Assembly (NCBI GenBank): GCA_037176845.1
Contig: JAYKXP010000165.1
Coordinates: 1-64,000, forward strand
Length of the DNA stretch: 64,000 bases
Reading direction: 5' to 3'
Source of the DNA: Paramarasmius palmivorus
Lineage: Eukaryota > Basidiomycota > Agaricomycetes > Agaricales > Marasmiaceae
Position numbers and translations under genes: made by a program. Shown in pieces: positions 3,749-64,000 of this stretch; position 1 is the first letter of the stretch; each line of letters begins with the position of its first letter. Under the pieces are notes generated by a model. It ran no database searches, was not told the origin of the DNA, and saw nothing but the letters and a program-made list of their open reading frames with translations.

Positions 3749-3845
3749 CACTTCAGTCACCCCCCATACAGGACCTAATAGGTCCATCCCTTGAGGTGAG
3801 CAGTTGGGCCTCTTAGGTGGGTTTTTTAGTTGTGGTTACCTCAAT

Positions 3846-4685
3846 AGGCAACTACCTCTACCTTAAGCCTGCAATAGGGTATTTTCCTGGAATTCAGCTA
3901 AATTGAGGTTTAGGCAGCTACCTATATAGTATAAAAGATTTCAAGCTATTGCCTGGGCTTTATTGGTAAATACCATATTTGTGTGATGTGACAGGGGGTG
4001 TCAGGGGTCCTGATTCTGAAAAATAGGCTATAAAATAGGCATCTATGCTCTGATATTGCTTTCAATTATTCTATTGATGCCTTTATCTTGTTTTAAGTGT
4101 TTATAAGACTTGGATAGTGTAAATTCTATATAATTGTGCCTATTTCTCATTAAATAGCATGCTCTCCAATAGGCTATACAAATGTAAATGTGACATATAA
4201 AATGCTATTGAGTATTGATATTAGACATAATAATCAGAGTACAATATAAAACTCTAACCACAGAAAGCAGCACAGTATTTACTCTTAGTAGCTTAAAATA
4301 TAGATGCTAACACTATAAAATTGTAATCTTATCAATTTGGTGAGGATTATAGGTAGCTATCTGTAAATTGAAAGCAGATATCTGATTCCATATAACTTAA
4401 GAATCTCTATCTATCATTTAAAAATAAGATAGGCAGCAACCTGTATCCTCTGGGCACTTGCTTTAATATAAATGGTGTCTACCATAGCTCATAGGTATAT
4501 ACCTTGAGTTAGTCTATACTATAGGTAATTACCTGAAAGTGATATGGGTAACAGGTAGTAACCTATATCTTTCAGGTATCTGCCCTAACATCAATGTATC
4601 TACCACAGATCTCAGGTAGTTGCCTCAGGCTCTTTTAGACTACAGGTAATTACCTCAAAGCTATATAAGTGGCAGGTTTTTGCCT
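3846..4685 (+). repeat. subterminal array of 12-bp palindromic motif, left arm
   Basis: At least eleven copies of a motif close to AGGTARYTACCT, itself a palindrome, start at 3846, 3912, 4351, 4431, 4493, 4523, 4553, 4574, 4614, 4644 and 4674. Two copies are the exact palindrome AGGTAATTACCT (4523 and 4644). Arrays of short motifs just inside the ends of DNA transposons are commonly transposase-binding sites; that role is inferred here. Confidence 0.75.
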
Positions 4686-5529
4686 GAGATAGATATATAA
4701 AATAATACATATATTATTACACTTTTTATAATCCAAAACAGGCAAGGACCCAGATGAATTCATGAATTAATTTTTTACATACTTTATGGCGCTTTTTTGG
4801 GCGCTTTTTTAACAGGAAAATAATTCCCACCCCTTCTGACATCATTTAAACATTATTTTAAAGTTATTTTAGAGTTTTTGAGCGCTTTTTGAGCGCTTTT
4901 TTTAATGGAAAATTATTCCCACCCCTTCTGACATCATTTGAGATCTTCTCCACTCCGCTTTTTTGGTCCCAAAATAGAAGGTGCTCTTACCTCACTATTT
5001 TCTACCTGGAATCAATGCATTGGGGGGCTATTGGGGCATGCTGGGGGGCTATAAAAATCACATTTTTGAGGGAATATGTTCTAATATGTTCTAAAAGCAT
5101 GCTACTGCAATTGGGGGGCAGGAGAATGCAAAAAAAGCGGTCCAAATATGGTAATTCAGGAAAATGGCATATTGGATCTTGGGCTACAGGGCAGATATTG
5201 ACATGGGGTAAGTTGGAGGACCTAGATACATTAAATACAAGGCTGGAGACACCAAATAGTACATAGATTAGTGGGATAATGGTGTTTAAATATCAAAAAT
5301 ACTGAAAATCTCCGAAATTGGGGGAATAAGATTACAGGATGGGATGTAATGCAGCTAGGGCTTAGATGTTGTGGAACAGAGATGATATATATGTCCCCTT
5401 GATGGGTTTACAATCCTGGAGAGCTGCCTATTTTTCCAGATTTATTACAGCTAAATTCGCTTTTTTTGGACATTGGTAATACTATACCACAGGGAATGAT
5501 TGGGATAGGCTAATTCTTGTTCATAACCC

Positions 5530-6067
5530 ACTCTAGGGTATACAGATGATGAATATATACTTGCCCAAGCACTCCTGTATGTGCAACACCTTGTTCAATC
5601 CAATGTATTGTACAGTTATGTAACACAGGCAGTAATACATGAATAGCACCTCAGGGAAGCATCCCAGCACCAAGGAGAGTTGAGAATCGAGTTCAGGCAC
5701 TCAAAATACACTTTCCTACTATGGAAGTACATTTTTTGAATACATCTGTATGTTGCTACATAAAAAATCACATTTTTAGGGGTTTTTATGCACTGGAGCA
5801 TGGGGACTGCTCCTAAAATCACCAAAAGTGAATTAGAGACTGCTCACTATGCATAGAACAGGAATATCAATTGCCTCCATGAGTCCCATGACAGCAAACC
5901 ATATGCCAGATGCATCAATTCTTGCACAATTACAGAAAACATGTAATATTGATGTAGTATTACAGGGAGGGGTCTGGGGACTTGGAGAATCTCAAAATCA
6001 AATTCAGCATGAAAAAATAGTTAAGAAACAATCCAGGTTTGAAAGGAATCCAATTACTATAGCTTGA
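5530..6067 (+). pseudogene. decayed coding remnant in palindrome 1, left arm
   Basis: A translation of this part reads like old protein (DEYILAQALLY, then RIEFRHSKYTFLL, then MHRTGISIASM) but needs frame changes and crosses stop codons. The same remnant occurs at 60920-61439 and, inverted, in the right arms of both palindromes. It may be the tail of a lost transposase gene. I do not recognise the family. Confidence 0.35.
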
Positions 6068-6340
6068 GATATGTTCAAGTTATGTTTATAGGCTTATGTA
6101 TAAAGTACTTGCAATCAATCTTTAACTTGGATTGTCTGACCTTTTCATTTAGGTCTTCCAGACCATTAGACCACCCTAGAACTAGCAATACCAACTCTAT
6201 GACATTAGAATATGAAGTATATAATACAATTTGGTGTCTAGTTGATCTCAGAATGCTTAATGAAAAGGTCAGACAATCCAAGTTAAAGATTGATTGCAAG
6301 TACTTTATACATAAGCCTATAAACATAACTTGAACATATC

Positions 6341-6880
6341 TCAAGCTATAGTAATTGGATTCCTTTCAAACCTGGATTGTTTCTTAACTGTTTTTTCATG
6401 CTGAATTTGATTTTGAGGTTCTCCAAGTCCCCAGACCCCTCCCTGTAATACTACATCAATATTACATGTTTTCTGTAATTGTGCAAGAATTGATGCATCT
6501 GGCATAAGGATTCCTGTCATGGGACTCATGGAGGCAATTGATATTCCTGTTCTATGCATAGTGAGCAGTCTCTAATTCACTTTTGGTGATTTTAGGAGCA
6601 GTCCCCATGCTCCAGTGCATAAAAACCCCTAAAAATGTGATTTTTTATGTAGCAACATACAGATGTATTCAAAAAATGTACTTCCATAGTAGGAAAGTGT
6701 ATTTTGAGTGCCTGAACTCGATTCTCAACTCTCCTTGGTGCTGGGATGCTTCCCTGAGGTGCTATTCATGTATTACTGCCTGTGTTACATAACTGTACAA
6801 TACATTGGATTGAACAAGGTGTTGCACATACAGGAGTGCTTGGGCAAGTATATATTCATCATCTGTATACCCTAGAGTGG
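6341..6880 (-). pseudogene. mirror copy of the decayed remnant, right arm of palindrome 1
   Basis: Inverted copy of 5530-6067 with only a few substitutions, for example in the MSPMTGI stretch. It carries the same disabling stops, so decay happened before or together with formation of the palindrome. Confidence 0.35.
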
Positions 6881-7734
6881 GTTATGAACAAGAATTAGCC
6901 TATCCCAATCATTCCCTGTGGTATAGTATTACCAATGTCCAAAAAAAGCGAATTTAGCTGTAATAAATCTGGAAAAATAGGCAGCTCTCCAGGATTGTAA
7001 ACCCATCAAGGGGACATATATATCATCTCTGTTCCACAACATTTAAGCCCTAGCTGCATTACATCCCATCCTGTAATCTTATTCCCTCAATTTCGGAGAT
7101 TTTCAGTATTTTTGATATTTAAACACCATTATCCCACTAATCTATGTACTATTTGGTGTCTCCAGCCTTGTATTTAATGTATCTAGGTCCTCCAACTTAC
7201 CCCATGTCAATATCTGCCCTGTAGCCCAAGATCCAATATGCCATTTTCCTGAATTACCATATTTGGACCGCTTTTTTTGCATTCTCCTGCCCCCCAATTG
7301 CAGTAGCATGCTTTTAGAACATATTAGAACATATTCCCTCAAAAATGTGATTTTTATAGCCCCCCAGCATGCCCCAATAGCCCCCCAATGCATTGATTCC
7401 AGGTAGAAAATAGTGAGGTAAGAGCACCTTCTATTTTGGGACCAAAAAAGCGGAGTGGAGAAGATCTCAAATGATGTCAGAAGGGGTGGGAATAATTTTC
7501 CATTAAAAAAAGCGCTCAAAAAGCGCTCAAAAACTCTAAAATAACTTTAAAATAATGTTTAAATGATGTCAGAAGGGGTGGGAATTATTTTCCTGTTAAA
7601 AAAGCGCCCAAAAAAGCGCCCAAAAAAGCGCCATAAAGTATGTAAAAAAATAATTCATGAATTCCTCTGGGTCCTTGCCTGTTTTGGATTATAGAAAGTA
7701 TAATAATATATGTATTATTTTATATATCTATCTC

Positions 7735-8579
7735 AGGCAAACACCTGTCACTTATATAGCTTTGAGGTAATTACCTGTAGTCTAAAAGAGCCTGAGGCAA
7801 CTACCTGAGATCTGTGGTAGATACATTGATGTTAGGGCAGATACCTGAAAGATATAAGTTACTACCTGTTACCCATATCACTTTCAGGTAATTACCTATA
7901 GTATAGACTAACTCAAGGTATATACCTATGAGCTATGGTAGACACCATTTATATTAAAGTAAGTGCCTAGAAGATACAGGTTGCTACCTATCTTATTTTT
8001 AAATGATAGATAGAGATTCTTAAGTTATATGGAATCAGATATCTGCTTTCAATTTACAGATAGCTACCTATAATACTCACCAAATTGATAAGATTACAAT
8101 TTTATAGTGTTAGCATCTATATTTTAAGCTACTAGTAGTAAATACTGTGCTGCTTTGTGTGGTTAGAGTTTTATATTATTTTACTCTGATTATCATGTCT
8201 AATATCAATACTCAATAGCATTTTATATGTCACATTTACATTTGTATAGCCTATATTGGAGAGCATGCTATTTAATGAGAAATAGGCACAATTATATAGG
8301 ATTTACACTATCCAAGTCTTATAAACACTTAAAACAAGATAAAGGCATTAATAGAATAATTGAAAGCAATATCAGAGCATAAATGCCTATTTTATAGCCT
8401 ATTTTTCAGAATCAGGACCCCTGACACCCCCTGTCACGTCACACAAATATGGTATTTACCAATAAAGCCCAGGCAATAGCTTGAAATCTTTTATACTATA
8501 TAGGTAGCTGCCTAAACCTCAATTTAGCTGAATTCCAGGAAAATACCCTATTGCAGGCTTAAGGTAGAGGTAGTTGCCT
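7735..8579 (-). repeat. subterminal array of 12-bp palindromic motif, right arm
   Basis: Mirror of the array in the left arm, running from AGGCAAACACCT at 7735 to AGGTAGTTGCCT at 8568. Because the motif is itself palindromic, both arms present it in the same orientation relative to the ends. Confidence 0.75.
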
Positions 8580-8676
8580 ATTGAGGTAACCACAACTAAA
8601 AAACCCACCTAAGAGGCCCAACTGCTCACCTCAAGGGATGGACCTATTAGGTCCTGTATGGGGGGTGACTGAAGTG

Positions 8677-18752: not shown

Positions 18753-21290
18753 GATCATAGTTAGAACAAATTTCGACCACCAGTTCCGTCGATAGCAATC
18801 CTTCCGAAATAGTACTTCTAAAGCCAGAAATATCGAAACGCTGTCGTCCTTTTAGCCGACCTACCTGTCATGTCCAGTCGAATGCTGAGTGCTTCTAGGA
18901 CACAGGTAATACTCCATCCCATTCAAATACTTCTTTAGTCGTTACTGATGTTGTCTCTTGTACAGTTTTCCTCTGTTTCTACGACGTCCAACGTGAGTAT
19001 TGGTATTCTCCACTGCTATCGAACCGTGAACGCTGAAACGGTAGCAGTGCCTCGCGTGTCTGTATCACGCACAAGACGTCTTTCATCATGTTCTGAGGTG
19101 CGCGCCGCTTGAACTGTTGGTCATACACATCTCGCTTACGATCAAAGGCAGCGATATATACTCATTTCGGAGATGCGGATAGCGAATTGAAACAGGTATA
19201 CTTGAGGGTGTGTTCGTTGTATGGGCTACACTCGCATGATAGCCAGGTACACCCAAATACTCGATTTTTTCAGCCGGCACTCAGTGGCTCCTCAATTGCG
19301 GTTGGGTGGATATCTAATGTCTACTCAGTGCTAGATCTATAGCGCTGATTGACCAAAAACCCCATGTTCCACGTTCATGAGTGATACATGAAGGGGACTT
19401 ACTGGATTCCGTGAGTGGTGTCTGTCGTCCTACTACTTGCTGTACTCACCTTTGGGCTCTAGACATGGGCAAGGACGTACTGTGGAACGAGCAAATCTAT
19501 GGCCATTTTCGCATCCCCCGGGCCTAGGTTCGGGTGTTACATATTCATGCGGCCTGAGATGCTATTCTCATAACCCGAATGTCGACTTTTTGTATCCTTG
19601 ATCAATTACTGCAACAATAAAGATATGTTACGCTTCATACACGATACCAGTACGTTTACTCCCCGTGAGTCAGGTATTCCCCGAGGTGATGGGGTGACGA
19701 AGTCAATAAAAAGAAACTAAGCATATTTGCCACGTCCGAGACTGAAGTACTCGTAAATAGTTTGTATGACAACAATGATCATCGTGAAGCCATGAACAGA
19801 GCCCAGAGAGACGTTTCTGACTCTGAGAGAATTGAGTGCGAAAGCACTGTGGGAAATAATGCCGACAACATCTTGATCATGAACCACGACGACGAGCATC
19901 ATCTCTCGGTCCCTTTTTCCTTCTTCCTCTTCGCGTGAAAATTCAAATGGCTATATGTCACTTCATGGTTCGTCTCTTCTCCTATGGCCCATTCCTTCGA
20001 CTCAAAAAAACACCTTTTTAAAAAATTTCTCTACAGCTCCTAGTCGAAGATCTTCCTTGGTCAAAATACAAGCACATCGCGAAGATTAAAAGTTAATGGA
20101 TACTTTACCGGGGAAAGACTCGGTGCGTTGTCGTGTTGTTTTTCGTGGTATCGCTGCAAGGTGTCGTTTTGCTGACTATCGGAATACTGTAGCTTTTAGG
20201 TATTTCATAACTGAGGAATTACCAGCGGGGTCAAGATGCTTCTGCGCCCTTTCCTGCTGCATTTGATAGGGCCTGGGAGGTTGCAACGGGCGGTGTTTGT
20301 TGGAAAGATCGTCAAGAGCAAGGGTAGACAAGAAACTTTGAGCGAGCGAGGGGAGAGTGTTTGGGATCTTTTGTGTACGGTACGTCCTTGCCCGGAATCT
20401 TCCTTCACGCAGGAGCTCATGATACCTCATGGCCAACTTACAGGAAACCCTAGGCAATATTGAAGACTCAGGCAACAACGCAAAAAAGACGGCTTCAAGA
20501 ATAGTCTACAACCACCTGAATTGGCACCATCCATCGTTCAATCACTCAAGGCCATAGTAAACGCGCATTATTCTATATGGTATCTGAGCTCTCGGTTGGA
20601 CGTTCCAAAGGTAGGTATAGTTATTACCCGCAAACTCCAAGTGCTAACAGGGCTTCTAGGCTCCAAACTCTTGTACATGTCCTCTTCCCCGGTTCGGAGG
20701 TATGGAATATCGCATCTAAGGTATGTTGTACTATCTGGCTTCGAACTCGCTACCCAGATGTTAATCGGCGACATATAGCTGCCCACTGGCAGGGCCGGAC
20801 CTCTCAGTTGGAGACATTCAGCATTCAAGCTTCAAGCATCGAGGTATGCTCAAAATATGTTCTTCGTATAGCTTGCACTCACGGTGCAATCTAGCGTATG
20901 AGAACGAACTGGTACTATCTTTGCTGATGGCCCGGTTGTCCAACATTTAGTCTTCGCCAGCTTGCTCGTGCCGAAGGAGTCATTAGATCGGGCTACCTAC
21001 GCGTAAGTTGGTGATTAAAAAGTTTCTTGTGCTCATACGACTCACAATGCTTACCTCTACCTACTTCCTACTTATGCAGATAATCACCTTCAAATATGAT
21101 GGTCATGGCCAGTGTCGGGAACGAGGTACTCCAGTCTTTTATCCGCCCATCAACCAGCCTCGTTCGACAGTGGCTTCTCGATCTCGCTTGGGTGAATATC
21201 CAGCGTCCACTTGGTGCTAGACATGCTCGTGTAGGCTTGGCTTTGGATTGACCCCACAACTTCGTGTTCCACGTTCATGAGTGGATACAT
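18753..21290 (+). repeat. duplicated block AB, copy 1, part B
   Basis: Matches 58285-59841 and 63127-64000 in the same orientation. TTTGTGT at 20370-20376 is the empty site of palindrome 2. No intact gene can be supported. Short open stretches (for example ELAPSIVQSLKAIVNAHYS near 20517) and splice-like sites suggest decayed spliced genes. The window ends inside copy 2, so the full length of the block is unknown. Confidence 0.8.
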
Positions 21291-21850: not shown

Positions 21851-21974
21851 CCCTTTCGTTTCTCTACAGCTCCCATCGGCTCCCAGTCCAGGATCTTCAA
21901 AGCTTCAACGGTTAACAAAACTCATTCTCTGCATATAGAGCGAAGCCTCCCGAGAGCCCTTGCAATTGGTATCA

Positions 21975-28594: not shown

Positions 28595-28677
28595 AGCGCC
28601 TACTACAGCATCCACACTATTGCCCTCTGGAGATCACCGACCATTCCATCTGTCCATCACATCGTGCGCCCAACAGC

Positions 28678-28684
28678 TATAAAG
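28678..28684 (+). promoter_or_regulatory. TATA box of the E1 gene
   Basis: TATAAAG 92 bp upstream of the ATG at 28770. The identical motif lies 95 bp upstream of the paralogous gene (47093-47099) inside a conserved CAGCTATAAAGCTGTCG. It argues against using the upstream in-frame ATG at 28692, which is only 14 bp from the box. Confidence 0.6.
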
Positions 28685-28769
28685 CTGTCGGATGCCTCGT
28701 GCACTCCACGGCTTCTGCTGTTCAACTACCACCACCAAAGCCCTCAGCCCTAGTCCTCCTTCGCCCACA

Positions 28770-45690: not shown

Positions 45691-46528
45691 AATCAACGAT
45701 CTATCCAAATTTGCTCATGTATTTGTTTCTATCTAATACATGTGTTCGTTTCTTCTTTCTCGATACGCCTTCGACCTCCGATGCTTCCAGCAATACTAGT
45801 GGATCCTCATAAGCGCCGAGCCTCCGAGAACGAGGAAAAAAACCTACCGTGTTCGTATGCCCGTGGGCGATGTAAAACACTTGCTCTGTGTTCAGAGCAG
45901 TGCCTTTGGTGGTCAATATGGGCGTTAGATAACGGGACCGCGAGTCACCGCATGTTGATCACATAGCGGTACAGCCTGTAAATCATTCAATCACTGAGCT
46001 CTACCGATCGAGAAAACGAGCTTACCTAGCTGTCTAGAACCTGTTTTCGGATCTAAATCGGTGTCTTCACTGTGGATGGCTTGAATGAGCCAAACAGGCA
46101 GCGAAAACTATGGTACCGATGACCTTTGGGAGGTCGTGTCAACCATAGGAACAAAGGCATTCAGTTCCTCGCCGAGGTCATGGTTCGCTGGTCGGATGCC
46201 TTGAAAGAGTTACTGATTGGAATCTCAGGTATGGAATTGCGCACTTCTCGAGTCGAAAGACAAGCATACTACATCAACATCGAGAGGCAAAAGCGAGTGA
46301 AGTAGACATACGATCCATTTAACTTGGGGTTTGTGCAGATTGATAGTGAATGTTGCTCGGGTGAAGGGGTACAGATTCTGGCTGAGTATGACATAAACTT
46401 GCTGTGAGCGAGCGGTCCAAAGAACAAAGTGAATGGGAAAGCTCACAATGAAGCCAAATCACCGTCCTTCAAATTCGATGTACGCTGACCATTCCCTGAC
46501 ACTCTGGGGAGATTCCTAAGCTAGAGAT
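45691..46528. other. unrecognised sequence
   Basis: No duplicated partner and no convincing gene. Short open frames on both strands overlap and look like chance. Confidence 0.4.
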
Positions 46529-46756
46529 CTATTGGTGAATGAGTCGAACGCGATCTTTTGGGCTAATCGGTACAGGCGGCCTTCTGCCTGGAGACCGGAG
46601 GAGGGAAATGAAGATGTTGGGTGTAGGCGGTACTGAATGAAAATCGATTGAAAGGTCGTTTGAAGAAGGTGAAGGGTCTGAGGGGAACAATGCATGGTGG
46701 TTGTGGGTCAAACCCAGTCTGGGGCGTAACCAAGGAACGTCTAACGATGGAGTCAC
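46529..46756 (-). pseudogene. diverged third copy of the block A hypothetical protein
   Basis: The minus strand ends in KDRVRLIHQ, matching DRVRLVHRY of the frames at 13913-14368 and 54057-54505, and the DNA around 46500-46630 aligns with 14090-14370. The remainder is too diverged to read. Confidence 0.4.
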
Positions 46757-47092
46757 AGCGCGATAAGATTAGATAGCCGGGAGTCAAAAGACAGGCACTG
46801 GTGAGGTCTTTTTGTCTGTCCATTCATCTACTCTTCACGATAAATCAAGCACAAGACGTTCGACGTTCCAGCGCTCAGCCAAAAGGCCACCTGATGGAGC
46901 AACTCATCGACATCCCATCCCGCGTTTATTCCATCGAAAATGACATTACTCTAGGTAAACTCCGTCACAAGAGTCGCCATCCCACTCAACTTTCCGCAGA
47001 GTCTAAGGCAAAACTAGCGCCTACTACAGCACTAACGCCCTCTGGAGATCACCGGCCATTCCACCTATCCATCACATCGTGCACTCAGCAGC

Positions 47093-47099
47093 TATAAAG
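47093..47099 (+). promoter_or_regulatory. TATA box of the E2 gene
   Basis: TATAAAG 95 bp upstream of the ATG at 47188, conserved in sequence and spacing with the E1 gene. Confidence 0.6.
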
Positions 47100-47187
47100 C
47101 TGTCGTATGCCTCGTGCACTCCACGGCCTCTCCTGCTATTCAATTACCACCACCAGAACCCTCAGCCCTAATCCTCCTTCGCCCACA

Positions 47188-49411
47188 ATGAGCTTCAATG
47201 CCTCGCAGGTCATTGTCACCGGTCCAGCTATCAACAACGTATCCCGCGATCAGGTCAATTTCACAGCGAGAGACGTCTATTTCAGTCCACCGGCGGAGCC
47301 TACAGAATATGACGAGGTACGGGCTCCTACAGTGATCTATATTCGTGAGCTGAACATGAAAATGACAGTTCGAACGCTTAAAAACAGGGGAAATCCATCT
47401 CTTGGAAGAGATCCATTGTGATGATATATTGGTCTGCGGTCACTGGTCTTGGAACTGCAGATGTGATGCACCTCGTACAGTCCAGAGGAAAATCTACAGT
47501 GTCGGATTGGCTAAGCACCAACCCAAGTTCACCGCCATCGAATATGAAGGCCAGGAGGCACGAGAAGTTTGGGAGAAAGATTTCCGTCGTTTTTCACAAA
47601 ACAGGTTCGTTACCGCCTTCCCCACCCAACAACTTCACTGACAACCAGATAGGTCCCCGAACGCATGGCAACTCTACGGCCTGAACCAATCCAACGTCCC
47701 ATTTTTGATCTTTCATGATGGTGAGTCCTCCCCCTTCAGCAATGCCGTATACTGATCAAGTTGGCACGATAGAGCTCGTTCCGATTGGGCATTTCTACAA
47801 GCACTCGTTCTGGGGGGATATCTTTGTTTGGTGGTTGCGGGTGCGTCCTAAACTTGGTGTTTCCTGTACCCGCAAAGCTAACACACTGTTCTTTTAGTTG
47901 GAAATGAGGTGCTATGTCTCGGAGATATGGTTGAACATGAGAGGGACTCTGATCAAGGGACCCCCGGGGCCCGATTTTTCCGTTCCAGGTGCTGGAACAC
48001 CCGACAAAATCACTATCCCATCCTCAGCAAAGATGCTACAAGACGACATTTCCTTTCACTTCTTCCAACAATTCCCTTCAAGGACGATGGACTGTCTCAT
48101 TGTGGAATCTGCACGGCGTCATTACTCAAGATCACCGCTCAAATGCCTTCTTCATGAAGGAGCGCTCAACATCCCACCGGAAAACACCCCGGAAACCCTT
48201 GATGGGCTCCGCATTGATACTGTATACTCCCCTTCACTGGGGGCTGTTGCGAGGTGCTGGGATGGTGGGGCGTTGTGGGAAATGGAGAGGAGGAAGGGGT
48301 TGATGGATAAAACAGTATTCGATGATGGGCTGATTCGGTGAGTGAGTGTGGGTGTAATGGTTCAGTTTTGGGCGCTGATTTCTAAAGTTTTAAGCTAGAC
48401 GGTCCAGATGTCAATGCTCGTTTCGAGTTTGACTGGCAGAGAATTCGCAAGAGTTGGTTGTCACAAAGCTCAAGGATCATGGATGCCTGCAGGAGGTCAG
48501 GAACAGAGGAACAGTGTGGTATGTCCTCCTCCTTCACTATCTTGATGATTAAACTCATCTTCCTTCCTTTGCATAGGTATCATTGATTCTCCAGATGATA
48601 TTGATCTCACATTAAAATCAACAAGACACTTGGTTCGACAAAGACTCTTACCATTTGAAACACCCCCGCCCATCTACCTCTTCATCTACCCTCTCCCCAT
48701 GACGATGTCCGGAATCAAGTCATGGGGAATAAACAGAACCCACTTCTGGTCTCTTGACAAGAATGGGCGATCTGAGATGACGGAGGAGGAATGTAGGCGA
48801 TGGGGAGTTCCAGAGCTGGATACAGATGTAGACTTTGGTGAGCTATATGTGTTTACATGGCCAAGCTATGTCTACGCTGCCATCCACAACTGGCAAGTCG
48901 CTCGTGGCTTCGACCCCACCACTACCAATTTTGCTTGGAGTTTGGGATATCCAGAGTGTGATATCCTCATCGATAACGAGACAACGGGAAGTCGGTTTGA
49001 GGAAGTTCATGGTAAGTCTCACAATCTCCTTGCAGTCGTTGGTACATTGTTCATTTACGATTCACAGAAAACTCATCTACTCCCGACAAGCAGAGTGAGC
49101 CAATTGTCCCGGAAGAACTTGATACAGCACTGGCAGTTGAAGGTCAGTACTCCGTTCAACGTTCTCTGTTAGTTCCGCTATCTCACTCCACAGAAACAGT
49201 CACGACCCCTCAGCCTTTGCTCACGACATCCACGATGGAGCCTTCACGGAACACTGTGCCACCAGAGCATTCCATGGTCAAGGGTCAACCGAGAGCTGAA
49301 ACACCCCCTCAGGTGCAGCAGATGGTCAATAGCTCGGACACGGTGAGCATTCTGGGAAAACGCAAGCGAGGAAACCAGATTTATACAAGAAGGGTCAGAC
49401 GAAGAGTGTGA
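47188..49411 (+). CDS. E2: intact 9-exon agaricomycete-family protein, 597 aa
   Basis: Exons 47188-47316, 47369-47604, 47653-47720, 47773-47840, 47898-48337, 48388-48518, 48577-49011, 49068-49142 and 49200-49411 join in frame. Seven of the nine exon lengths equal those of E1 (68, 68, 440, 131, 435, 75) or differ by whole codons. Intron 3 starts with a normal GT. In the kinase-like N-terminal part the motif is AIEY, so the lysine of E1 is Glu101 here; with no HRD or DFG this protein should not be an active kinase. The C-terminal domain has FWSLDKNGRSEMTEEECRRW and GYPECDIL. The tail ILGKRKRGNQ followed by YTRRVRRRV is a strong candidate nuclear-localisation signal that E1 lacks. Two open copies after visible divergence suggest that both have been under selection. 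Confidence 0.8.
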
Positions 49412-53989: not shown

Positions 53990-55531
53990 TAACCATACCC
54001 ATTCCTGTGTAGATGTATAACACCGAAACGATCCCAGCTGGGAAGGCTATGAACTAGGTGTAGGTATCAAAAAGGTGAATTGAAGCGCGACTTGTTGCCT
54101 GAGACGCTCTAGACTGATTTTCCGGCCTCTTCCTGCACTATACGTGTGTATCCATTCATCGTTGAATGGTTTGTCGTTGAGACATAACAACACGTCCTTT
54201 TCGATACACGGCAACCATTCCTTTGACTATAGGGAGATTCCTGGGCTAAAAATGTAGCGGTGAACGAGCCGAACACGATCTGCTGAGTTAATCGGTTCCG
54301 AGGGAGAAAAGGATGAAGATAGCGATACGGGGAAGCATAAGAGTAAAGCTTCATCGGGTTCTGCTTTGAGAAGACCGTGAAGAAGATGGGAAGGAGAACG
54401 GATAAAAACGAGGAGGTGGAAAGAAGAGTCGCCTTGTCGGCCGACTGCTTGGAGACCCGAAGGAACGAAGGAGGTGAAGAAGTTGGGTGTAGGTGGTGCT
54501 AGCATCTAGAGCAGGTTGGAATCGCTGACGCTCGAGCCTAACAATGCGATATTCGAATCTTTGATGTCGTATCGATTGGTCTTTGTTGGATAGGCCATTG
54601 AATTTGCAGGATGGATATGGATGTAGTGGTTGCCGTTGAAGAGAATTAGCGCTCGTCAGTCATCAGCCTTTTTCCTCGACTACCATCATGCTCCTCACCC
54701 TCACCAGCGTTCTTCATCCTATTCCCGGATTTCTCCATCTACCAAAATGTCTTTTCCGAAGCGTACAAGGTTTTAAAACCCCCAGTAGCAGTAGCAAAGG
54801 GATACAAGATAACGAACAAAGGATCTTTGATACATTTGGGTTGGTGGTCGACTTCGAACCCAACATTGACCATCCACAGTATAAATACGTGCGGAGTGGA
54901 ATTTCATTCTAGACTCTCCGCTAACACGGTGTTCATAATATTAGAGCTTGCGATAATGTCGATTGAATCAACCACTACCCATGTCATCTCCACGAAGCAC
55001 CCAGCCATTCCTTTTCAAGTCTTCCGGTCCCAGTAGGAGCCCAGCGACACCGAATTTCTCTCGAACACTTGCACTCACAGGCGAAATAGATTGCGTTCCG
55101 GAGCGTTGCACTCGGGAATCGGAATGTGCACAGTCTCGCTGACAAGCTCGTGTACCTCGGACGACAACACCCAGTGGCCCGACCCTTCCTCCAAATGAAA
55201 GCAACTGGTATCATGGTACCATCTGGCATGCCTGGGTGAAGTCAAAGGCTATGTATACTGGACCTCGTGTTGGATCTCATTGTATACCCTCGACTGTGCT
55301 ATGCCCGATGGTTTTTTTATTGTGCAATTTTGCATCATGCTCGTTCAGCTACCAGCATAGCAAAGCCCGAGCGTCACGGTGTGCGGTTTGCGATATTCTG
55401 CGAACTGTCGGTGTGCTGGCTTCGGTTGAGCGTTGTCGGAGTATCCATACAGGTAAGTGCCAATACCTATATCTTCTTGCGATTGATGTATTCATTGTTC
55501 TTTCTATGTAGATCCCGGGCTTCAAGTGCGA
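53990..55531 (+). repeat. duplicated block AB, copy 2, part A, left of the retroelement
   Basis: Matches 13850-15376 until AGTGCGA, where the Penelope-like element begins. The long open frame of the reverse transcriptase runs by chance into this host sequence as far as 55267, but that upstream part is not element sequence because it is shared with copy 1. Confidence 0.85.
54057..54505 (-). pseudogene. block A hypothetical protein, copy 2, frameshifted
   Basis: Near-identical to 13913-14368 up to RYIFSPGIS, where a small change around 54230 brings a stop (ends at about 54227). The downstream half persists in another frame (54354-54109). A pseudogene relative to copy 1. Confidence 0.55.
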
Positions 55532-55548
55532 TCCCGGGTCAGATTAAG

Positions 55549-57411
55549 ATGCTCGCTCTCAACCCCAAGTTTGTTCCGAAACCGCCACCTACGGCAGTAA
55601 GCGACGCGCTTGATGCGTTTGATGATTTCGCAAGGCGCCTAAGGCTCAGAGGCTTCGCAACCTCCAACAAACCAGCCCAAAGCACACTCTGCTCATACTT
55701 CGGTAAAGCAGAGATGGAAAAAGGTCAACTAACTTATGTGCCTGAATTCCACATTGCAAATCCTAACGCAGAGGGACCACCCCTCATAAATCTAATTGAA
55801 AACGCTCTTGGCAAAGTACGTGACCAGTTAGAGCTTGAGGTCCTCAGCAGACAGTCAATACGCATCTGCCCGAACATTAACCAGCGAGAACTTGAACAAC
55901 TGCTCAAGCTACTCTGCCGGAACAACTTGTTGGCACTGCCGGCTGATAAAAACCTTGGACTCTGCCTCGTTACCACAGAATGGTACCACCAAGCAGGTCT
56001 CAAGTTACTGCGAAATGCCTCGTACATTGAGGATGAACCCGACTTCTACAGCATACGTGATACACTGAAAGCTATCATTGAGAAATCAAAGAAGCTTCTC
56101 ACCTCACAACAGCTAAAATGGCTACTCCTACCATGTGAAGAAGGACGGTTCAAGGTACCCACCCTCAAAGTCATCCCGAAGATACATAAGCTGCCTATAT
56201 CCGGCCGCCCGATCGTCCCTACATTTGATACTATGTTGGCGAACGCTTCGGCCTGGGTTGACTACCAAATCAAACCACACCTTGCAAAATTCCCTTGGAT
56301 CCTCCCAGACTCTAAGACGTTCTGCCGTCAAATACTGGAGCTGGAGCTACCAATGGGAGAAGAGATATGGCTCGTCTCTGGAGATGTCGTAGCGATGTAC
56401 CCTAACATCCCGGTGGAGGATGGCATCAGGGAAATCGCGAAGATTCTCCGAGTCAGTGATATGAGCTTCAACTCACTTCATCATGCCTCACAGTTGAATG
56501 TACGCTCTATCAAAGAGCTAACAGTACTACTCCTCAGGATGGTACTGAAGTACAACTACGTCTCTTTTGCAGATAAAACCTACCGGCAAGTGATAGGGAC
56601 CGCTATGGGTACCGCATGTGCACCTACCTATGCGAACCTATTCCTCGCTAATGCCGAAAAGGTAGCGCTAACGGAAATGAAAGACATCATCCTATACTAC
56701 AGCCGCTTCATTGATGACACATTCGCCATCATACGAGGCACGCTAGAGGACGTCTTGAGATTCCAAAAGCGCTTCGGGAATCTACACCCAAACATGAGGA
56801 TGGAGTGGGCCCAGTCCCGCCATCGTTTACCCTTTCTAGACATTTCGGTAGCCCTGGAAGTTGCACCAGGGACCCCAGCATGGGCTGGACAACTTGAACT
56901 TGTGACACGTGTCTATCAGAAAGCTCTAAACGCATACCTCTACATCCCCTGGAACTCCTGTCATTCTGCTAACTCCAAACGTGCTTGGGTTAAAGGAGAG
57001 CTCATTCGATATATCAGAATATGCTCACGAGAGGAAGATTTCTCCTGCATACAGAAAGAATTCGCTATCCGATTACATGCCAGAGGATACCCGGGGAGAT
57101 GGCTACATAGTGTCTTTGATGAAGTATCATACTCGGAGGAGCGCCCAACCGCACTTACCTCTTCCAAGGATAACCCCGAGGAAGACCCGATACATGTTCT
57201 CAAACTCACCCATAATCCAATATGGGACGACGTAGACCTTGGTCCCATTTGGCACGAGCTGAGAAAGGTTTGGAAGGAATCAGTTAGCAGCATATCTGAT
57301 TTACGCTTCCTCGCTTCTTTCAAGAAACCGCCCGCGCTGGGTGACCAGTTAAATAAATCTAACTGGGATACTATGAAAGCTTTTCACGATGAATTGGCGT
57401 TAAACGTTTAG
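55549..57411 (+). CDS. Penelope-like reverse transcriptase, 620 aa, apparently intact
   Basis: RNA-directed DNA polymerase that would copy the element's RNA, presumably in the nucleus. Starting at MLALNPKF: DKNLGLCLV at residues 133-141, a Penelope-type N-terminal motif; KIHK 211-214 and GRPIV 219-223; motif A GDVVAMYPNIP 278-288 with Asp279; motif B GTAMGTACAPTYANLFLA 350-367; motif C YSRFIDDTF 384-392 with Asp389 and Asp390; FLDIS 429-433; and YQKALNAYLYIPWNSCHS 456-473 in the thumb. All three catalytic aspartates are present, and there is no stop or frameshift. The C-terminal 150 residues contain no GIY-YIG endonuclease pattern. The start is chosen because sequence before 55532 is host DNA; ATG 55549 is the first inside the element. 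An intact gene plus an empty paralogous site indicate a fairly recent insertion. Confidence 0.92.
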   Translation: MLALNPKFVPKPPPTAVSDALDAFDDFARRLRLRGFATSNKPAQSTLCSYFGKAEMEKGQLTYVPEFHIANPNAEGPPLINLIENALGKVRDQLELEVLSRQSIRICPNINQRELEQLLKLLCRNNLLALPADKNLGLCLVTTEWYHQAGLKLLRNASYIEDEPDFYSIRDTLKAIIEKSKKLLTSQQLKWLLLPCEEGRFKVPTLKVIPKIHKLPISGRPIVPTFDTMLANASAWVDYQIKPHLAKFPWILPDSKTFCRQILELELPMGEEIWLVSGDVVAMYPNIPVEDGIREIAKILRVSDMSFNSLHHASQLNVRSIKELTVLLLRMVLKYNYVSFADKTYRQVIGTAMGTACAPTYANLFLANAEKVALTEMKDIILYYSRFIDDTFAIIRGTLEDVLRFQKRFGNLHPNMRMEWAQSRHRLPFLDISVALEVAPGTPAWAGQLELVTRVYQKALNAYLYIPWNSCHSANSKRAWVKGELIRYIRICSREEDFSCIQKEFAIRLHARGYPGRWLHSVFDEVSYSEERPTALTSSKDNPEEDPIHVLKLTHNPIWDDVDLGPIWHELRKVWKESVSSISDLRFLASFKKPPALGDQLNKSNWDTMKAFHDELALNV

Positions 57412-57432
57412 TTCTATTTGGTCCCTATCCTC

Positions 57433-57480
57433 GAACACGGCCTGCCACGCCCCTACGGGACGCGGCTTGCGGCCGTGTTC
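57433..57480 (+). other. strong hairpin just downstream of the reverse transcriptase gene
   Basis: GAACACGGCC (57433-57442) is perfectly complementary to GGCCGTGTTC (57471-57480). The 28 bases between them can extend the structure through CGCC/GGCG-type pairs. It starts 22 bases after the stop codon. It could be an RNA element for reverse transcription or for 3' end formation; this role is inferred. Confidence 0.7.
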
Positions 57481-57869
57481 TTTGGATAAGGAAAAAAGGA
57501 ATTAAAATTACACGTTTCTCCCTTATTCCTAATAACTACCGTGAATTCATACCTGTCCCCTACGCTGTGCGTTAACTCGTGAGTAGGAAAAGGAAGCGGA
57601 TACTCACCTGTGATCTTCTCTTTAAACCCTTGACCGGGCCCATAAGACACGGTTTGTGACCGCGGCATGATTCTAAGGTTAAGAACTGGCATGTCAATTA
57701 ACAACCCATATACTAGCAATGTGGATAAGACTTACCAGTAGGATAAGGCTGTCGAGAGGTAAACGCGTCGAGTCCTCACCAAAGGATTCCGCGACTCGAA
57801 ACAGACACCTATGTCATTGTTTGGCTCAACGCCCGATGACAAACAATTCGCGTGAAGACGGGAAACCAC

Positions 57870-57918
57870 GCTGCCTGATGAGTCTTTGCAGACGAAACGT
57901 TGGTCCAAACGTCGCGGC
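57870..57918 (+). ncRNA. type I hammerhead ribozyme of the Penelope-like element
   Basis: The complete conserved core is present: CUGAUGA 57875-57881, GAAA 57894-57897 and UC before the cleavage site, after C57913. Stem II is GUCU/AGAC (57882-57885 with 57890-57893) closed by UUGC. Stem III is CGUU/AACG (57898-57901 with 57908-57911) with a 6-nt loop. Stem I is GCUGC/GCGGC (57870-57874 with 57914-57918), with one G-U pair. Hammerhead ribozymes are known in Penelope-like elements, where they self-cleave the transcript. Only one copy is present here, on the 3' side. Confidence 0.88.
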
Positions 57919-57979
57919 CCTTCCTCGCTCTCTTAAACTCGCTAGAATACCCTTCAGACACCTCAGATCGCTCGCTCTC

Positions 57980-58284
57980 GATCAACACTCATGTGAGCTA
58001 TCTATGTCTCACTGAATCTCACCCTTTGTGACTGGTCTCTTACTCTCAGCCTATTTTGTTGGTAAGCGAGCTCAGGTTGACAACTTTGTACATCCCAAGC
58101 ATTAGTTCAGGAAGATCGCTCGGCATCCCATTCCACCATCCAAGGTACGTTAACGTCCAATCTTTACTCATTCATCTGAGTGCACAGCGCGTTATCGCCA
58201 GCATCCTCAATACAGCACGCATAATCAAACGAACCGAACATGGTAGGTCTACTATTTTCAGAGTTGTGCTACCATACTAATGCA
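57980..58284 (+). repeat. duplicated block AB, copy 2, part A, right of the retroelement
   Basis: Resumes homology at GATCAACACTCATG (15384 in copy 1) and runs to about 58275, where copy 1 instead has the two insertions at 15685-18745. Confidence 0.85.
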
Positions 58285-59841
58285 CATAGAACGAATTTCG
58301 ACCACCAGCTCCGTCGATGGCAATCCTTCCGAAATAGTACTTCTAAAGCCAGAAATATCGAAACACTGTCGTCCTTTTAGCCGACCTACCTGTCATGTCC
58401 AGTCGAATGCTGAGTGCTTCTAGGACACAGGTAATACACCATCCCATTCAAATACTTCTTTAGTCATTACTGATGTTGTCTCTTGTACAGTTGTCCTCCG
58501 TTTCTACGACGTCCAATGCGAGTATTGGTATTCCCCACTACTATCGAACCGTGAACGCTGAAACGGTAGCAGTGCCTCGCGCGTCTGTATCACGCACAAG
58601 ACGTCTTTCATCATGTTCTGAGATGCGCGCCGCTTGAACTGTTGGTCATACACATCTCGCTCACGATCAAAGGCAGCGACATACACTCATTTCGGAGATG
58701 TGGATACCGAATTGAAACAGGTGTACTTGAGGGTGTGATCGTCGTATGGGCTATGCTCGCATGATAGCCAGGTACACCCAAATACTCGATTTTTTCAGCC
58801 GGCACTCAGTGGCTCCTCAATTGCGGTTGGATGGATATCTAATGTCTACTCAGTGCTAGATCTATAGCGCTGATTGACCAAAAACCCCATGTTCCACGTT
58901 CATGAGTGGTACATGAAGGGGACTTACTGGATTCCGTGAGTGGTGTCTGTCGTCCTACTACTTGCCGTACTCACCTTTGGGCTCTAGGCATAGACAAGGA
59001 CGTCGTGTGGAACGAGCAAATCTATGGCCATTTTCGCATCCCCCGGGCCTAGGTTCGGGTGTTACATATTCATGCGGCCTGAGATGGTATTCTCATAACC
59101 CGAATGTCGACTTTTTGTATCCTTGATCAATTACTGCAACAATAAAGATATGTTACGCTTCATACAAGGTACCGGTACGTTTACTCCCCGCGAGTCAGGT
59201 ATTCCCCGAGGCAATGGGGTGACAAAGTCAATAAAAAGAAACTAAGCATATTTGCGTCTGAGACCGAAGTACTCGTAAATAGTTTGTATGACAACGATGA
59301 TCATCCTGAAGCCATGAACACTGACAGAGCCCAGAGAGACGTTTCTGACTCTGAGAGAGTTGAGTGTGAAAGCGCTGTGGGAAACGATGCCGACAACGTC
59401 TTGATCATGAACCACGACGAGGAGCATCATCTCTCGGTCCCTTTTTCCTTCTTTCCCCTTATTCTTCATTTCGCGTGAAAGTTCAAATGACTATATCCTT
59501 TTAAAAAATTTCTCTATAGTACCCAGTCGAAGATCTTCCTTGGTCAAAATACAAGCACATCGCGAAGATTAAAAGCTAATGGATACTTTACCGGAGAAAG
59601 ACTCGGTGCATTGTGTTTTTCGTGGTATCGCTGCAAGGTGTCGTTTTGCTGACTATCGGAATAGCTTTCAGGTATTTTATAAATGAGGAATCACCAGCGA
59701 GCCTTCTACGCCCTTTCCTGCTGCATGTGATAGGGCCTGGGAGGTTGCAGCGAGCGGTATTTTGTCGGAAAGGTCGTCAAGAGCAAGGGTAGGCAAGAAA
59801 CTTTGAGCGAGCGAGGGGATAGAGTTTGAAATCTTTTGTGT
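58285..59841 (+). repeat. duplicated block AB, copy 2, part B, left of palindrome 2
   Basis: Matches 18760-20376. No intact gene. 59242-59469 and its copy 1 equivalent show short open frames on both strands that are not supported as coding. Confidence 0.8.
59835..59841 (+). repeat. left target-site duplication of palindrome 2
   Basis: TTTGTGT, repeated at 63120-63126 and present once at the empty site 20370-20376. Confidence 0.85.
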
Positions 59842-61430
59842 CAGCCGGCGGTGTAGGGACTTGGTAAAGGCCCTTGTTGACTAACCGTAGACCCTTTGTA
59901 AAGGCCACAGGTTATTCTTAAAATGGAAATTCTTCGGCCCACCAGGATTCTATTCCCTGGATTCACTTCCTAAAAGGGCAGGAACTTTGGGAGAAAGATA
60001 CAGTCCGCTTTTTTTGTTCCAAAAAGGGCAGGAGAGGGATTCCCAGGCCCTGGGAAACCCTAATAGGGTGTTTGGGGCGCTTTTGGGCGCTTTTTTGAGC
60101 GCTTTTTTAACAGGAAAATTATTCCCACCATCTGGGGGGTCATATAGGATGCCTCCCTGCTCCGCTTTTGGCTTCCCAAAAAGGAAGGTAGCCTTCCCAG
60201 GCCCTGGAAAAGCATTGTGAGCGCTTTTGGGCGCTTTTTTCAGCGCTTTTTTAACAGGAAAAATATTCCCACACCTCCTGACATCATCTGACATGCCTCC
60301 TGATGCCTCCCTGCTCCGCTTTTGGCTTCCCAAAATGGAAGGTGCCCTTACCTCACTTTTTTCCACCCACAATCAATGCATTAGGGGGCTATTGGGGCAT
60401 GCTGGGGGACTATAAAAATCGCATTTTTAAGAAAATATGTTCCAATATGTCCCAGAAGTATGCCCCTGCAATTGGAGAGCAGGGGAATGCAAAAAAAGCG
60501 GTCCAAATAGGGTAATTCAGGAAAATGGCCTATTGGATCTTGGGCTACAGGGCAGATATTGACATGGGGTAAGTTGGAGGACCTAGATACATCAAATACA
60601 AGGCTGGGCATACCAAATAGTACATAGATTAGTGGGATAATGGTGCTTAAATATCAAAAATACTGAAAATCTCCGAAATTGGGGGAATAAAATTACAGGA
60701 TGGGATGTAGTGCAGCTAGGGCTTAGATATTGTGAATCAGAGATGATATATATGTCCCCTTGCTTCGTTTACAATCCTGGAGAGCTGCCTATTTTTCTAG
60801 ATTTATTACAGCTAAATTCGCTTTTTTTGGACATTGGTAATACTATACCACAGGGAATGATTGGGATGGGCTAATTCTTGTTCATAACCCACTTTAGGGT
60901 GTATAGATGATGAATATATACTTGCCCAAGCACTCCTGTATGGGCAACACCTTGTTCAATCCAATGTATTGTACAGTTATGTAATATAGGTAGTAATACA
61001 TGAATAGCACCTCAGGGAAGCATCCCAGCACCAAGGGGAGTTCAGAATCGAGTTCAGGCACCCAAAATACACTTTCCTACTATGAAAGCACATTTTTTGA
61101 ATACATCTGTATGTTGCTACATAAAAAATACATCAAAAATCGCATTTTTAGGGGTTTTTGTGTACTGGAGCATAGGGATTGCTCCTAAAATCACCAAAAG
61201 TGAATGAGAGACCGTTCACTATGCATAGAACAGGAATATCAATTGCCTCCATGAACCCCATGACAGGAATCCATATGCCAGATGCATCAATTCCTGCACA
61301 ATTACAGAAAACATGTACTATGGATGTAGTACTGCAAGGAGTGATCTGGGGACTTGGGGAACCTCAAAATCGAATTCAGGGTGAAAAATCAGTTAAGAAT
61401 ATGTCCAGGGTTGAAAAGAATCCAATCACT
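59842..61430 (+). repeat. left arm of palindrome 2
   Basis: Inverted copy of 61531-63119. Identity is near-perfect in the outer part and lower next to the spacer, where a few indels separate the arms. Confidence 0.9.
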
Positions 61431-61439
61431 GTAGCTTGA
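60920..61439 (+). pseudogene. decayed coding remnant in palindrome 2, left arm (mirrored at about 61535-62040)
   Basis: Same remnant as at 5530-6067: DEYILAQALLYGQHLVQSN, then several stops, then FRIEFRHPKYTFLL, then in another frame MHRTGISIASMNPMTGIHM. Shared stops in both palindromes show that the core was already dead before the two elements separated. Confidence 0.35.
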
Positions 61440-61530
61440 GATAGGTATCTGACAAGTTTTATGCTTATAGTTAACATATGTTGCACATATACTTGTGCAT
61501 TTAACTTGATCTATGCATATTGAAGTCAAT

Positions 61531-63119
61531 TGTGGATGGATTTCCTTCAACCCTGGATATATTCTTGACTGATTTTTCATCCTGAATTCAATTTTGAGGT
61601 TCCCCAAGTCCCCAGATCACTCCTTGCAGTACTACATCCATAGTACATGTTTTCTGTAATTGTGCAGGAATTGATGCATCTGGCATATGGATTCCTGTCA
61701 TGGGGTTCATGGAGGCAATTGATATTCCTGTTCTATGCATAGTGAACGGTCTCTCATTCACTTTTGGTGATTTTAGGAGCAATCCCTATGCTCCAGTACA
61801 CAAAAACCCCTAAAAATGCGATTTTTGATGTATTTTTTATGTAGCAACATACAGATGTATTCAAAAAATGTGCTTTCATAGTAGGAAAGTGTATTTTGGG
61901 TGCCTGAACTCGATTCTGAACTCCCCTTGGTGCTGGGATGCTTCCCTGAGGTGCTATTCATGTATTACTACCTATATTACATAACTGTACAATACATTGG
62001 ATTGAACAAGGTGTTGCCCATACAGGAGTGCTTGGGCAAGTATATATTCATCATCTATACACCCTAAAGTGGGTTATGAACAAGAATTAGCCCATCCCAA
62101 TCATTCCCTGTGGTATAGTATTACCAATGTCCAAAAAAAGCGAATTTAGCTGTAATAAATCTAGAAAAATAGGCAGCTCTCCAGGATTGTAAACGAAGCA
62201 AGGGGACATATATATCATCTCTGATTCACAATATCTAAGCCCTAGCTGCACTACATCCCATCCTGTAATTTTATTCCCCCAATTTCGGAGATTTTCAGTA
62301 TTTTTGATATTTAAGCACCATTATCCCACTAATCTATGTACTATTTGGTATGCCCAGCCTTGTATTTGATGTATCTAGGTCCTCCAACTTACCCCATGTC
62401 AATATCTGCCCTGTAGCCCAAGATCCAATAGGCCATTTTCCTGAATTACCCTATTTGGACCGCTTTTTTTGCATTCCCCTGCTCTCCAATTGCAGGGGCA
62501 TACTTCTGGGACATATTGGAACATATTTTCTTAAAAATGCGATTTTTATAGTCCCCCAGCATGCCCCAATAGCCCCCTAATGCATTGATTGTGGGTGGAA
62601 AAAAGTGAGGTAAGGGCACCTTCCATTTTGGGAAGCCAAAAGCGGAGCAGGGAGGCATCAGGAGGCATGTCAGATGATGTCAGGAGGTGTGGGAATATTT
62701 TTCCTGTTAAAAAAGCGCTGAAAAAAGCGCCCAAAAGCGCTCACAATGCTTTTCCAGGGCCTGGGAAGGCTACCTTCCTTTTTGGGAAGCCAAAAGCGGA
62801 GCAGGGAGGCATCCTATATGACCCCCCAGATGGTGGGAATAATTTTCCTGTTAAAAAAGCGCTCAAAAAAGCGCCCAAAAGCGCCCCAAACACCCTATTA
62901 GGGTTTCCCAGGGCCTGGGAATCCCTCTCCTGCCCTTTTTGGAACAAAAAAAGCGGACTGTATCTTTCTCCCAAAGTTCCTGCCCTTTTAGGAAGTGAAT
63001 CCAGGGAATAGAATCCTGGTGGGCCGAAGAATTTCCATTTTAAGAATAACCTGTGGCCTTTACAAAGGGTCTACGGTTAGTCAACAAGGGCCTTTACCAA
63101 GTCCCTACACCGCCAGCTG
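61531..63119 (-). repeat. right arm of palindrome 2
   Basis: Inverted copy of 59842-61430; for example the frame at 62589-63011 mirrors 59950-60372 without a visible difference. Confidence 0.9.
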
Positions 63120-63126
63120 TTTGTGT
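63120..63126 (+). repeat. right target-site duplication of palindrome 2
   Basis: TTTGTGT, identical to 59835-59841. Confidence 0.85.
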
Positions 63127-64000
63127 ACGGTACGACCTTGCACAGAATCTTCCTTCACGCAGGAGCTCACGATACCTCATAGCCAACTTACAGGAAACCC
63201 TAGGCAATATTGAAGACTCAGACAACACCACAAAAAAGACGGCTTCAAGAATAGTGACGACCACCTGAATTGGCGCCATCCATCGTTCAATCACTCAAGG
63301 CCATCGTAAACGCGCATTATTCTATATGGTATCTGAGCTCTCGGTTGGACGTTGGTAGGTATAGTTGTTACCCGCAAACTCCAAGTGCTAACAGAATTTT
63401 CAGAATCCAAATGCTTGTCCATGTCCTCTTCCCCGATTCGGAGGTATGGATTATCGCATTTGAGGTATGTTGTGCTATCTGGTTTCGAACTCGCTACTCA
63501 GATGTTAATCGGCGACATATAGCTCCCCAGGGTTGGACTTCTCAGCTGGAGACATTCAGCATTCAAGCTTCAAGCATCGAGGTATGCTCAAAATCTGTTC
63601 TTCATATAGCTTGCACTCACGGTGCGATCTAGCGTATGAGAACGAACTGGTGCTATCTTTGCTGATGGCCCGGTTGTCCAACATTTAGTTTTCGCCAGCT
63701 TGCTCGTGCCGAAGGAGTCGTTAGATCGGATAGCATCAGCTCATGTTTGTGGGCATCGGGCTACCTACGCGTTAGTTGGTGATTAAAAAGTTTCTTGTGC
63801 TGATACGACTCACAATGCTTACCTCTACCTACTTGCTACTTGTGCAGATAATAAACTTCAAATATGATGGCCATGGCCAGTGTCGGAAACGAGGTACTCC
63901 AGTCTTTCATCCGCCCGTCAGCCAGCCTCGGTCGACAGTGGCTTCTCGATCTCGCTTGGGTGAACATCCAGTGTACATGTCCACTTGGTGCTAGACGTGC
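63127..64000 (+). repeat. duplicated block AB, copy 2, part B, right of palindrome 2
   Basis: Matches 20377-21240 and continues to the end of the window, apart from small indels (for example about 30 extra bases near 63735-63765). Confidence 0.8.

Follow-up and report, generated by a model that had tools for sequence, protein, structure and literature searches.

The window analysed here, a 64,000-nucleotide stretch of the Paramarasmius palmivorus genome (positions 1-64000 of contig C165 in a 68.3-Mb assembly of 393 contigs), contains a giant palindrome at 59842-63119, which the original prediction had delimited and which proved true to the base, spanning 3278 bp with arms that end exactly at these limits (palindrome 2 or W2; Table 1). 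Its arms are 99.5% identical over 1583 bp with no internal indel, a match that, given its length, is far beyond chance; one of the differences lies at position 5 from the end and seven lie at 1530-1577 beside the loop, with positions 6-1529 being identical. With 2 x 1583 of the 3278 bp in aligned arms and no recognised transposase in the ORFs tested, the element has the makeup of a foldback element. The tested arm ORFs (62589-63008 in palindrome 2 and 4889-5263 in palindrome 1) gave no Pfam hit and do not encode a KDZ transposase (PF18758), as expected for a non-autonomous element, and an Rfam search of the palindrome likewise yielded no hit. It had been called the second such palindrome in the window, and palindrome 1 indeed is also flanked by a 7-bp duplication; it shares the core of palindrome 2, and the outer ~1.1 kb of each of its arms is unlike that of palindrome 2. 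The loop is conserved at 92-100% over ~92 bp in most copies read from the genome and at 79-86% in four of them (L016, L019, L021 and L032); the copy comparison did not find the loop of palindrome 2 in palindrome 1 or in L031.

Table 1. Features of the two palindromes, their insertion sites and related loci (window coordinates unless a contig or locus is named)
Feature	Position	Strand	Remarks
Palindromic element 1, ends CACTTCAGTCACC...	3749..8676	.	4928 bp; same core as element 2; TSD ATTGAGC at 3742-3748 and 8677-8683
Paralogous flank surrounding the empty site	20016..20991	+	
Empty site, single TTTGTGT in paralogous block	20370..20376	+	
Filled site, left flank	59499..59841	+	
Left target site duplication, TTTGTGT	59835..59841	+	
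Palindromic element 2 (W2)	59842..63119	.	3278 bp; self-alignment and flank alignment
Left arm (A) of element 2	59842..61443	+	8 mismatches in 1583 aligned to right arm
Left terminus, CAGCCGGCGGTG...	59842..59886	+	83% to left end of KDZ element C127:10134-22180
Core, left arm	60225..61443	+	common to palindrome 1 (90%) and other genome copies read
Asymmetric loop of element 2	61444..61536	.	93 bp
Right arm (B) of element 2	61537..63119	-	
Core, right arm	61537..62736	-	common to palindrome 1 and other genome copies read
Right terminus, CAGCTGGCGGTG...	63075..63119	-	80% to the same C127 KDZ end
Right target site duplication, TTTGTGT	63120..63126	+	
Filled site, right flank	63127..63729	+	
Uninterrupted paralogues of the empty site	C48:70548, C103:52198, C111:71988, C88:63183, C103:24128, C88:198325, C111:19064, C111:120646, C209:37555		
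PF24764 nested element	L029 about 2575-10000, with L030 (C213)		~8.6 kb; alpha-kinase match; inside right arm

The window also carries a large duplicated block (13859-30866 and 42942-64000) whose halves apparently lie in swapped order, 22152-30866 resembling parts of 42942-49299 and 13859-21226 resembling parts of 53993-64000, with main pieces 81-96% identical; one part of the block has diverged relatives on contigs C48, C88, C103, C111 and C209. Between the duplicated segments lies a 714-aa open frame (55267-57411) with a weak match to reverse transcriptase (PF00078, E 0.0027, below the cut-off), and a 561-aa frame at 1801-3486 has no Pfam hit, the seven homologues listed for it all being from Paramarasmius palmivorus and five of them being named SERTA domain-containing protein 3 by the source.

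The insertion of palindrome 2 can be read directly from the two copies of this block, as TTTGTGT is present once in the uninterrupted copy and twice, on either side of the element, in the other. When the immediate flanks of palindrome 2 were joined with a single TTTGTGT and aligned to 20300-20450, 125 of 136 positions were identical with no internal gap, and the longer flanks aligned to 20016-20991 with 880 of 945 positions identical and eight internal indel openings. A palindrome that had once occupied both blocks and was then precisely lost from copy 1 would equally leave a single TTTGTGT, and the original prediction had itself named such a deletion as an outcome that would overturn it. However, a genome search with 20016-20991 recovered nine paralogues outside the window in each of which a single match, at 69-79% identity, runs uninterrupted through the junction, with no kilobase insert at that point in any of the nine (some shorter matches from this search end before the junction); precise loss would thus have to be invoked repeatedly at the same place. 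Moreover, the arms of palindrome 2 differ by 0.5%, as against 6.9% between the flanks of the two blocks. We therefore find precise loss scarcely credible: absence at the nine paralogues implies most simply that the ancestral state lacked the palindrome, which supports the earlier claim that the palindrome went in as one piece once the block had been duplicated, creating a 7-bp target duplication. In a tenth paralogue (C48:50744-52958) the match is interrupted by ~1.4 kb near the junction, the break falling at query 328-347 and the junction, 10-30 bp or so away, at 355-361.

Palindrome 2 belongs to a sizeable family. A search with the first arm, counted by eye, detected at least 40 loci in the genome including palindrome 2 itself, 37 of them with both arms (the best 40 of 185 first-look candidates were scored, and the copies on C155 and C47 may represent one site). 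Sequences 97-98% identical to the outer 1032 bp of palindrome 1 occur at 11 other loci, six of which have both ends in inverted order, and three more pairs are found at 86-94%. We then considered 24 distinct sites, comprising 20 loci read at 8.7-10 kb each, the copies on C213, C150 and at 118 kb on C120, and both window copies, with C155/C47 counted once; 19 of these have exact 7-bp duplications together with CA..TG ends. An automatic search found an exact 7-mer adjoining CA..TG ends in 19 of the 21 stretches with a measurable palindrome (18 distinct sites), as against 2 of 418 mismatched flank pairs in the control, only one of the two having at least 6 of 12 matching end bases; the nineteenth site, L032, comes from a wider search without a control of its own. 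The two ends of L017, L020 and L027 agree at only 6-7 of 12 bases, and the 7-mer search of the flanks gave no clean duplication for L015 (one arm only), L018, L023, L029 (which has a nested insert) and L031. Two near-identical palindromes in opposite orientation, L013 and L014 (C68:91035 and C68:106372), lie ~12 kb apart, each with its own TSD, and possibly reflect a local jump. Paired palindromes at this spacing had suggested a composite transposon, in which two palindromes would bound a larger element; this model was dropped because each C68 copy is flanked on both sides by a TSD of its own (GCACATG in one, GAAATTC in the other), as is the copy read on C79 (GCACCCT).

Across the family the two arms of a copy mostly resemble each other far more closely than they resemble those of other copies. 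In the 22 copies compared (that is, without L015, which has no second arm, L029 and L031), the core arms within a copy differ by 0.79% on average, whereas their medians to other copies average 6.91%. In 18 of the 22 this difference is 0.00-0.77%, the exceptions being L025 (1.45%), L009 (1.77%), L023 (2.13%) and L032 (6.44%), and the nearest other copy is 2.1-7.4% away outside three recent sets (W2/L009/L010, L013/L014 and L021/L032). The partner arm is the nearest relative, ties counted, of 33 of the 44 arms, where shuffling gave a mean of 1.1 and a maximum of 8 in 2000 trials, and in a tree the arms of the same copy are sisters in 15 of the 22 copies (all but W2, L009, L010, L013, L014, L023 and L032). 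L032 is chimeric, one of its arms lying 0.67% from L021 and its own arms being 6.4% apart. In 19 copies the mismatch between arms falls steeply with distance from the end, from 19.1% in the outer 20 bp to 4.6% at 20-50, 2.5% at 50-100, 1.5% at 100-150 and 0.2-0.4% from 150 to 1400, before rising to 6.0% at 1400-1550, a bin which reaches into the loop of the shorter copies.

A second signature is the orientation of the loop. On contigs C155 (14345-17620) and C47 (400364-403641) the element occupies one and the same site, with ACAATGA as the duplication in both and flanks that show one mismatch in 3205 positions on one side and one gap in 3358 on the other, the outermost 140 bases read on the left not being collinear. 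In these two copies the loop is in opposite orientation, and the seven differences beside the loop switch sides along with it, which is what a crossover between the arms predicts. An inner crossover also accounts for position 5 of the left end, which is T in both contigs, but not for position 5 of the right end, which is T in C155 but C in C47 and needs a further change. One C155 arm additionally carries a variant tract that spans positions 32-957 and comprises 30 substitutions plus a 2-bp gap; L013 has the gap and 25 of these substitutions as well. Where the ends of a copy can be told apart, as in 14 copies, 10 loops face one way and 4 the other, and in both L026/L028 and L021/L032 the first 24 letters are the same at both ends (24/24) with the loops being opposite. 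We infer that crossover and conversion between arms are the processes behind the arm identity and the flips.

It might instead be argued that arm identity reflects mere recent amplification from perfectly palindromic masters, with no continuing exchange between arms. The ends of palindrome 1, alike at 97-98% at 11 other loci, do have the appearance left by a recent burst; the arm differences beside the loop are common to W2 and the C47/C155 copies and were hence passed on by transposition; and L023 is about as distant from its nearest other copy (2.30%) as its arms are from each other. Yet within-copy differences of at most 0.77% in 18 of 22 copies, set against 2-7% to the nearest copy outside the three recent sets, mean that the masters of the different subgroups must have had their own arms homogenised again once the subgroups had separated, and the difference in loop orientation and the ~0.93-kb one-arm variant tract of C47/C155 arose at one site. 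We therefore regard amplification alone as unlikely and favor continuing exchange between arms. Long inverted repeats are a known hazard for assembly, which raises the question of whether the palindromes or their loop flips are artefacts; flips and arm identity both come from one assembly, and short-read polishing or repeat collapse could exaggerate the arm identity and imitate part of the flips. Nevertheless, the recovery of at least 40 loci, 37 with both arms, with 7-bp duplications that vary from site to site and a paralogous site that stands empty, makes wholesale artefact very hard to believe, although this evidence protects the palindromes better than the flips.

The original prediction did not address what moves the palindrome; its ends tie it to KDZ transposons. 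The 21-base end pattern of the palindrome 2 type occurs at 21 places with up to three mismatches, as against 4 for the reversed control, and among these are C127:10134 and, inverted, C127:22180, which bracket a PF18758 (KDZ) match at 19641-20357. The 12,047-bp element so defined has TCGTGAG on both sides and inverted ends of ~66 bp at 78%, and its PF18758 match has stops inside (introns or decay). The likeness of palindrome 2 to it is confined to the outer 31-46 bp at 80-87%, extending up to 74 bp in sister copies. A second KDZ-bearing element, of 19,245 bp at C47:108773-128017 (L035/L036; TSD GCTCTTG), has 301-bp inverted ends at 93% and a PF18758 match with E 2e-55, and matches palindrome 1 at 97% identity over its first 93 bp; it also has a 924-residue open frame with a weak match to the KOW motif (below the Pfam cut-off), along with several further unassigned open frames. 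The termini of both window palindromes are thus common to elements that encode a KDZ transposase, C127 for palindrome 2 and C47 for palindrome 1. KDZ is abundant in this genome, with at least 178 matches (150 scored of 365 candidates), and the left end of a further KDZ element was read on C17. A candidate third partner, for the CACCAGATG type, is hinted at on C18, C68 and C200, where ends of this type that depart from the pattern by three mismatches each lie 11-12 kb away from a KDZ match. Based on the shared ends, the TSD length and the co-residence in one genome, we propose that the palindromes are mobilised by a KDZ protein; their assignment to KDZ is well supported, and the presence of KDZ partners makes a P-type transposase a less likely helper.

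The copy on C213 offers a case for a different transposase, as C213:10185-21580 resembles a single 11.4-kb element with ~800-bp inverted ends, a gene for a PF24764 integrase (P0008) and an alpha-kinase match, and it was initially entertained as the autonomous partner. In the alignment, though, ~8.6 kb of foreign DNA breaks the right arm at one point, with element positions 2345-2353 on both sides, and a perfect 34-bp inverted repeat lies at or near both of its borders; this single break point and the inverted repeat make it most likely that the PF24764 DNA is a separate, perhaps IS3EU-like, element nested in the palindrome. Furthermore, no palindrome sequence turned up in the 8.5-9 kb read at the relatives of the PF24764 gene on C76 and C29, two stretches that match each other perfectly over 8.5 kb; the comparison covered these two of three places, the third being C76:52864. 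C213 was accordingly rejected as the autonomous partner, and mobilisation of the palindromes by such an integrase, or by another transposase, appears highly improbable relative to mobilisation by KDZ. The C213 gene piece had no match in a plasmid search and one insignificant match (E 0.96) in a PDB search.

The same core (about 60225-61443 and its mirror) is found behind several unrelated types of ends in this genome: CAGCCGGCGGTG in palindrome 2; CACTTCAGTCACC in palindrome 1; CAGCTGATG/CACCAGATG in L022, L024-L026 and L028, a pattern present at 102 places as against 7 for the control; CAGCTGAGG or CAGGCGG/CACCCGTAG in L017 and L020; and CAGCCGCAC/CATCCG in L027. In copies with unlike ends one usually begins with CAGC (CAGG in L020) and the other with CACC (CATC in L027), and the C127 KDZ element likewise has one CAGC-type and one CACC-type end. 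Both ends are of the CAGC type and alike in W2 and in the C47/C155 copies, which nevertheless lie at two sites with duplications. We tentatively raise the possibility, which we hold to be somewhat doubtful, that the palindrome acts as an end-swapping device, whereby a core that gained the end of a new KDZ family on one arm would transfer it to the second by copying and thereby change transposase family. Such a process would by itself account for the mosaic of unrelated ends, the almost perfect identity of the arms and the flipping of the loop, and would make the palindrome a perpetual passenger that outlives every one of its helper transposons.

Taken together, we consider it quite probable that these palindromes are non-autonomous foldback-type DNA transposons, passengers of KDZ (perhaps Kyakuja-like) transposons, whose arms recombine with each other. 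A palindromic core of ~1.2 kb per arm plus loop sits behind the ends, whose last tens of base pairs the KDZ transposase would recognise; judging from the ends and duplications, the enzyme would excise the palindrome and reinsert it with a 7-bp stagger. Between jumps the arms would pair and recombine, with crossovers flipping the loop and conversion keeping the arms near-identical; conversion would for the most part not reach the outermost bases, at which the two ends usually still differ. These outermost bases would usually escape or resist equalisation, perhaps since unlike ends work better, and exchange of ends could proceed by the same crossover or conversion between arms. A high-copy palindromic passenger with clean TSDs, empty sites and large partners makes the recognition of ends by KDZ testable, and the arm data offer a natural experiment on how long inverted repeats recombine in a eukaryotic genome.

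Among known systems, the closest in target and termini are the Kyakuja elements. According to the accessible portions of the account by Kojima 2025 (PMC12730594), Kyakuja of Laccaria have 7-bp TSDs, 5'-CA..TG-3' termini and no TIRs, TSDs are 8 bp in Zisupton and a Dileera family, and IS3EU has a 6-bp TSD with TAYGG..CCRTA ends. A 7-bp TSD with CA..TG ends was found at 19 of the 24 palindrome sites and in both KDZ elements read, and the palindromes share with Kyakuja of Agaricomycetes an agaricomycete host; the 19 clean palindrome sites give 7 bp, in contrast to Zisupton, the Dileera family and IS3EU, and their CA..TG termini also differ from those of IS3EU. Unlike the Kyakuja families, which encode a transposase and are reported to lack TIRs, the palindromes have no recognised gene and are inverted repeat almost throughout, and the C47 and C127 elements have TIRs (301 bp at 93% and ~66 bp at 78%). 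The partner transposons are perhaps Kyakuja-like, and the palindromes, which would act through KDZ, are filed as non-autonomous elements and not as full KDZ members. KDZ1-3 of Cryptococcus neoformans, as described in the portions available of their account (PMC12810828), are 9-11 kb coding elements with TIRs of 139-241 bp, shown mobility and TSDs of 8 bp (KDZ1) or 4-8 bp (KDZ2, KDZ3); TIRs are in common with the palindromes, whereas coding content and TSD length differ, and those portions report no palindromic or shortened DNA elements jumping; the TSD lengths and this lack of jumping derivatives, like the missing TIRs of Kyakuja, count against the KDZ reading. We found no palindromic KDZ derivative among the titles and abstract openings listed in searches of the KDZ, Kyakuja and Zisupton literature, unlisted, closed-access and supplementary texts lying outside this survey. 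KDZ elements and non-autonomous DNA elements are reported for Marasmius oreades (PMC8290104), and unnamed relatives of the palindromes may therefore sit there.

In architecture, the foldback element Tetris, going by the available part of its description (PMC4079207), is similar in having long inverted repeats, no conserved ORF and ends common to an element thought to use the same transposase; it differs in its 8-10-bp TSDs, suggested Mutator affiliation and tandem repeats inside the TIRs. The behaviour of the palindromes is already known in kind from Galileo, a P-superfamily element of Drosophila and hence of a different superfamily from that to which sequence comparison points here. As set out in the accessible portions of two papers (PMC3573991, PMC4168063), Galileo has 7-bp TSDs, two-TIR (2T) copies with 98-100% TIR identity within a copy, one central region with TIRs of three subfamilies, and chimeric copies. 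Like Galileo 2T, the palindromes are non-autonomous and combine two very long inverted repeats, 7-bp TSDs and near-identical arms with several ends on one core and chimeras; unlike the palindromes with their KDZ-associated ends, Galileo has a P-superfamily transposase and a GTANTAC target preference, and the loop flips at one site seen for the palindromes were not found described for Galileo in those portions. Long inverted repeats have been proposed, in the portion available of one of these papers (PMC3573991), to aid transposon survival by promoting sequence exchange, and the present family would allow that proposal to be tested in an unrelated superfamily.
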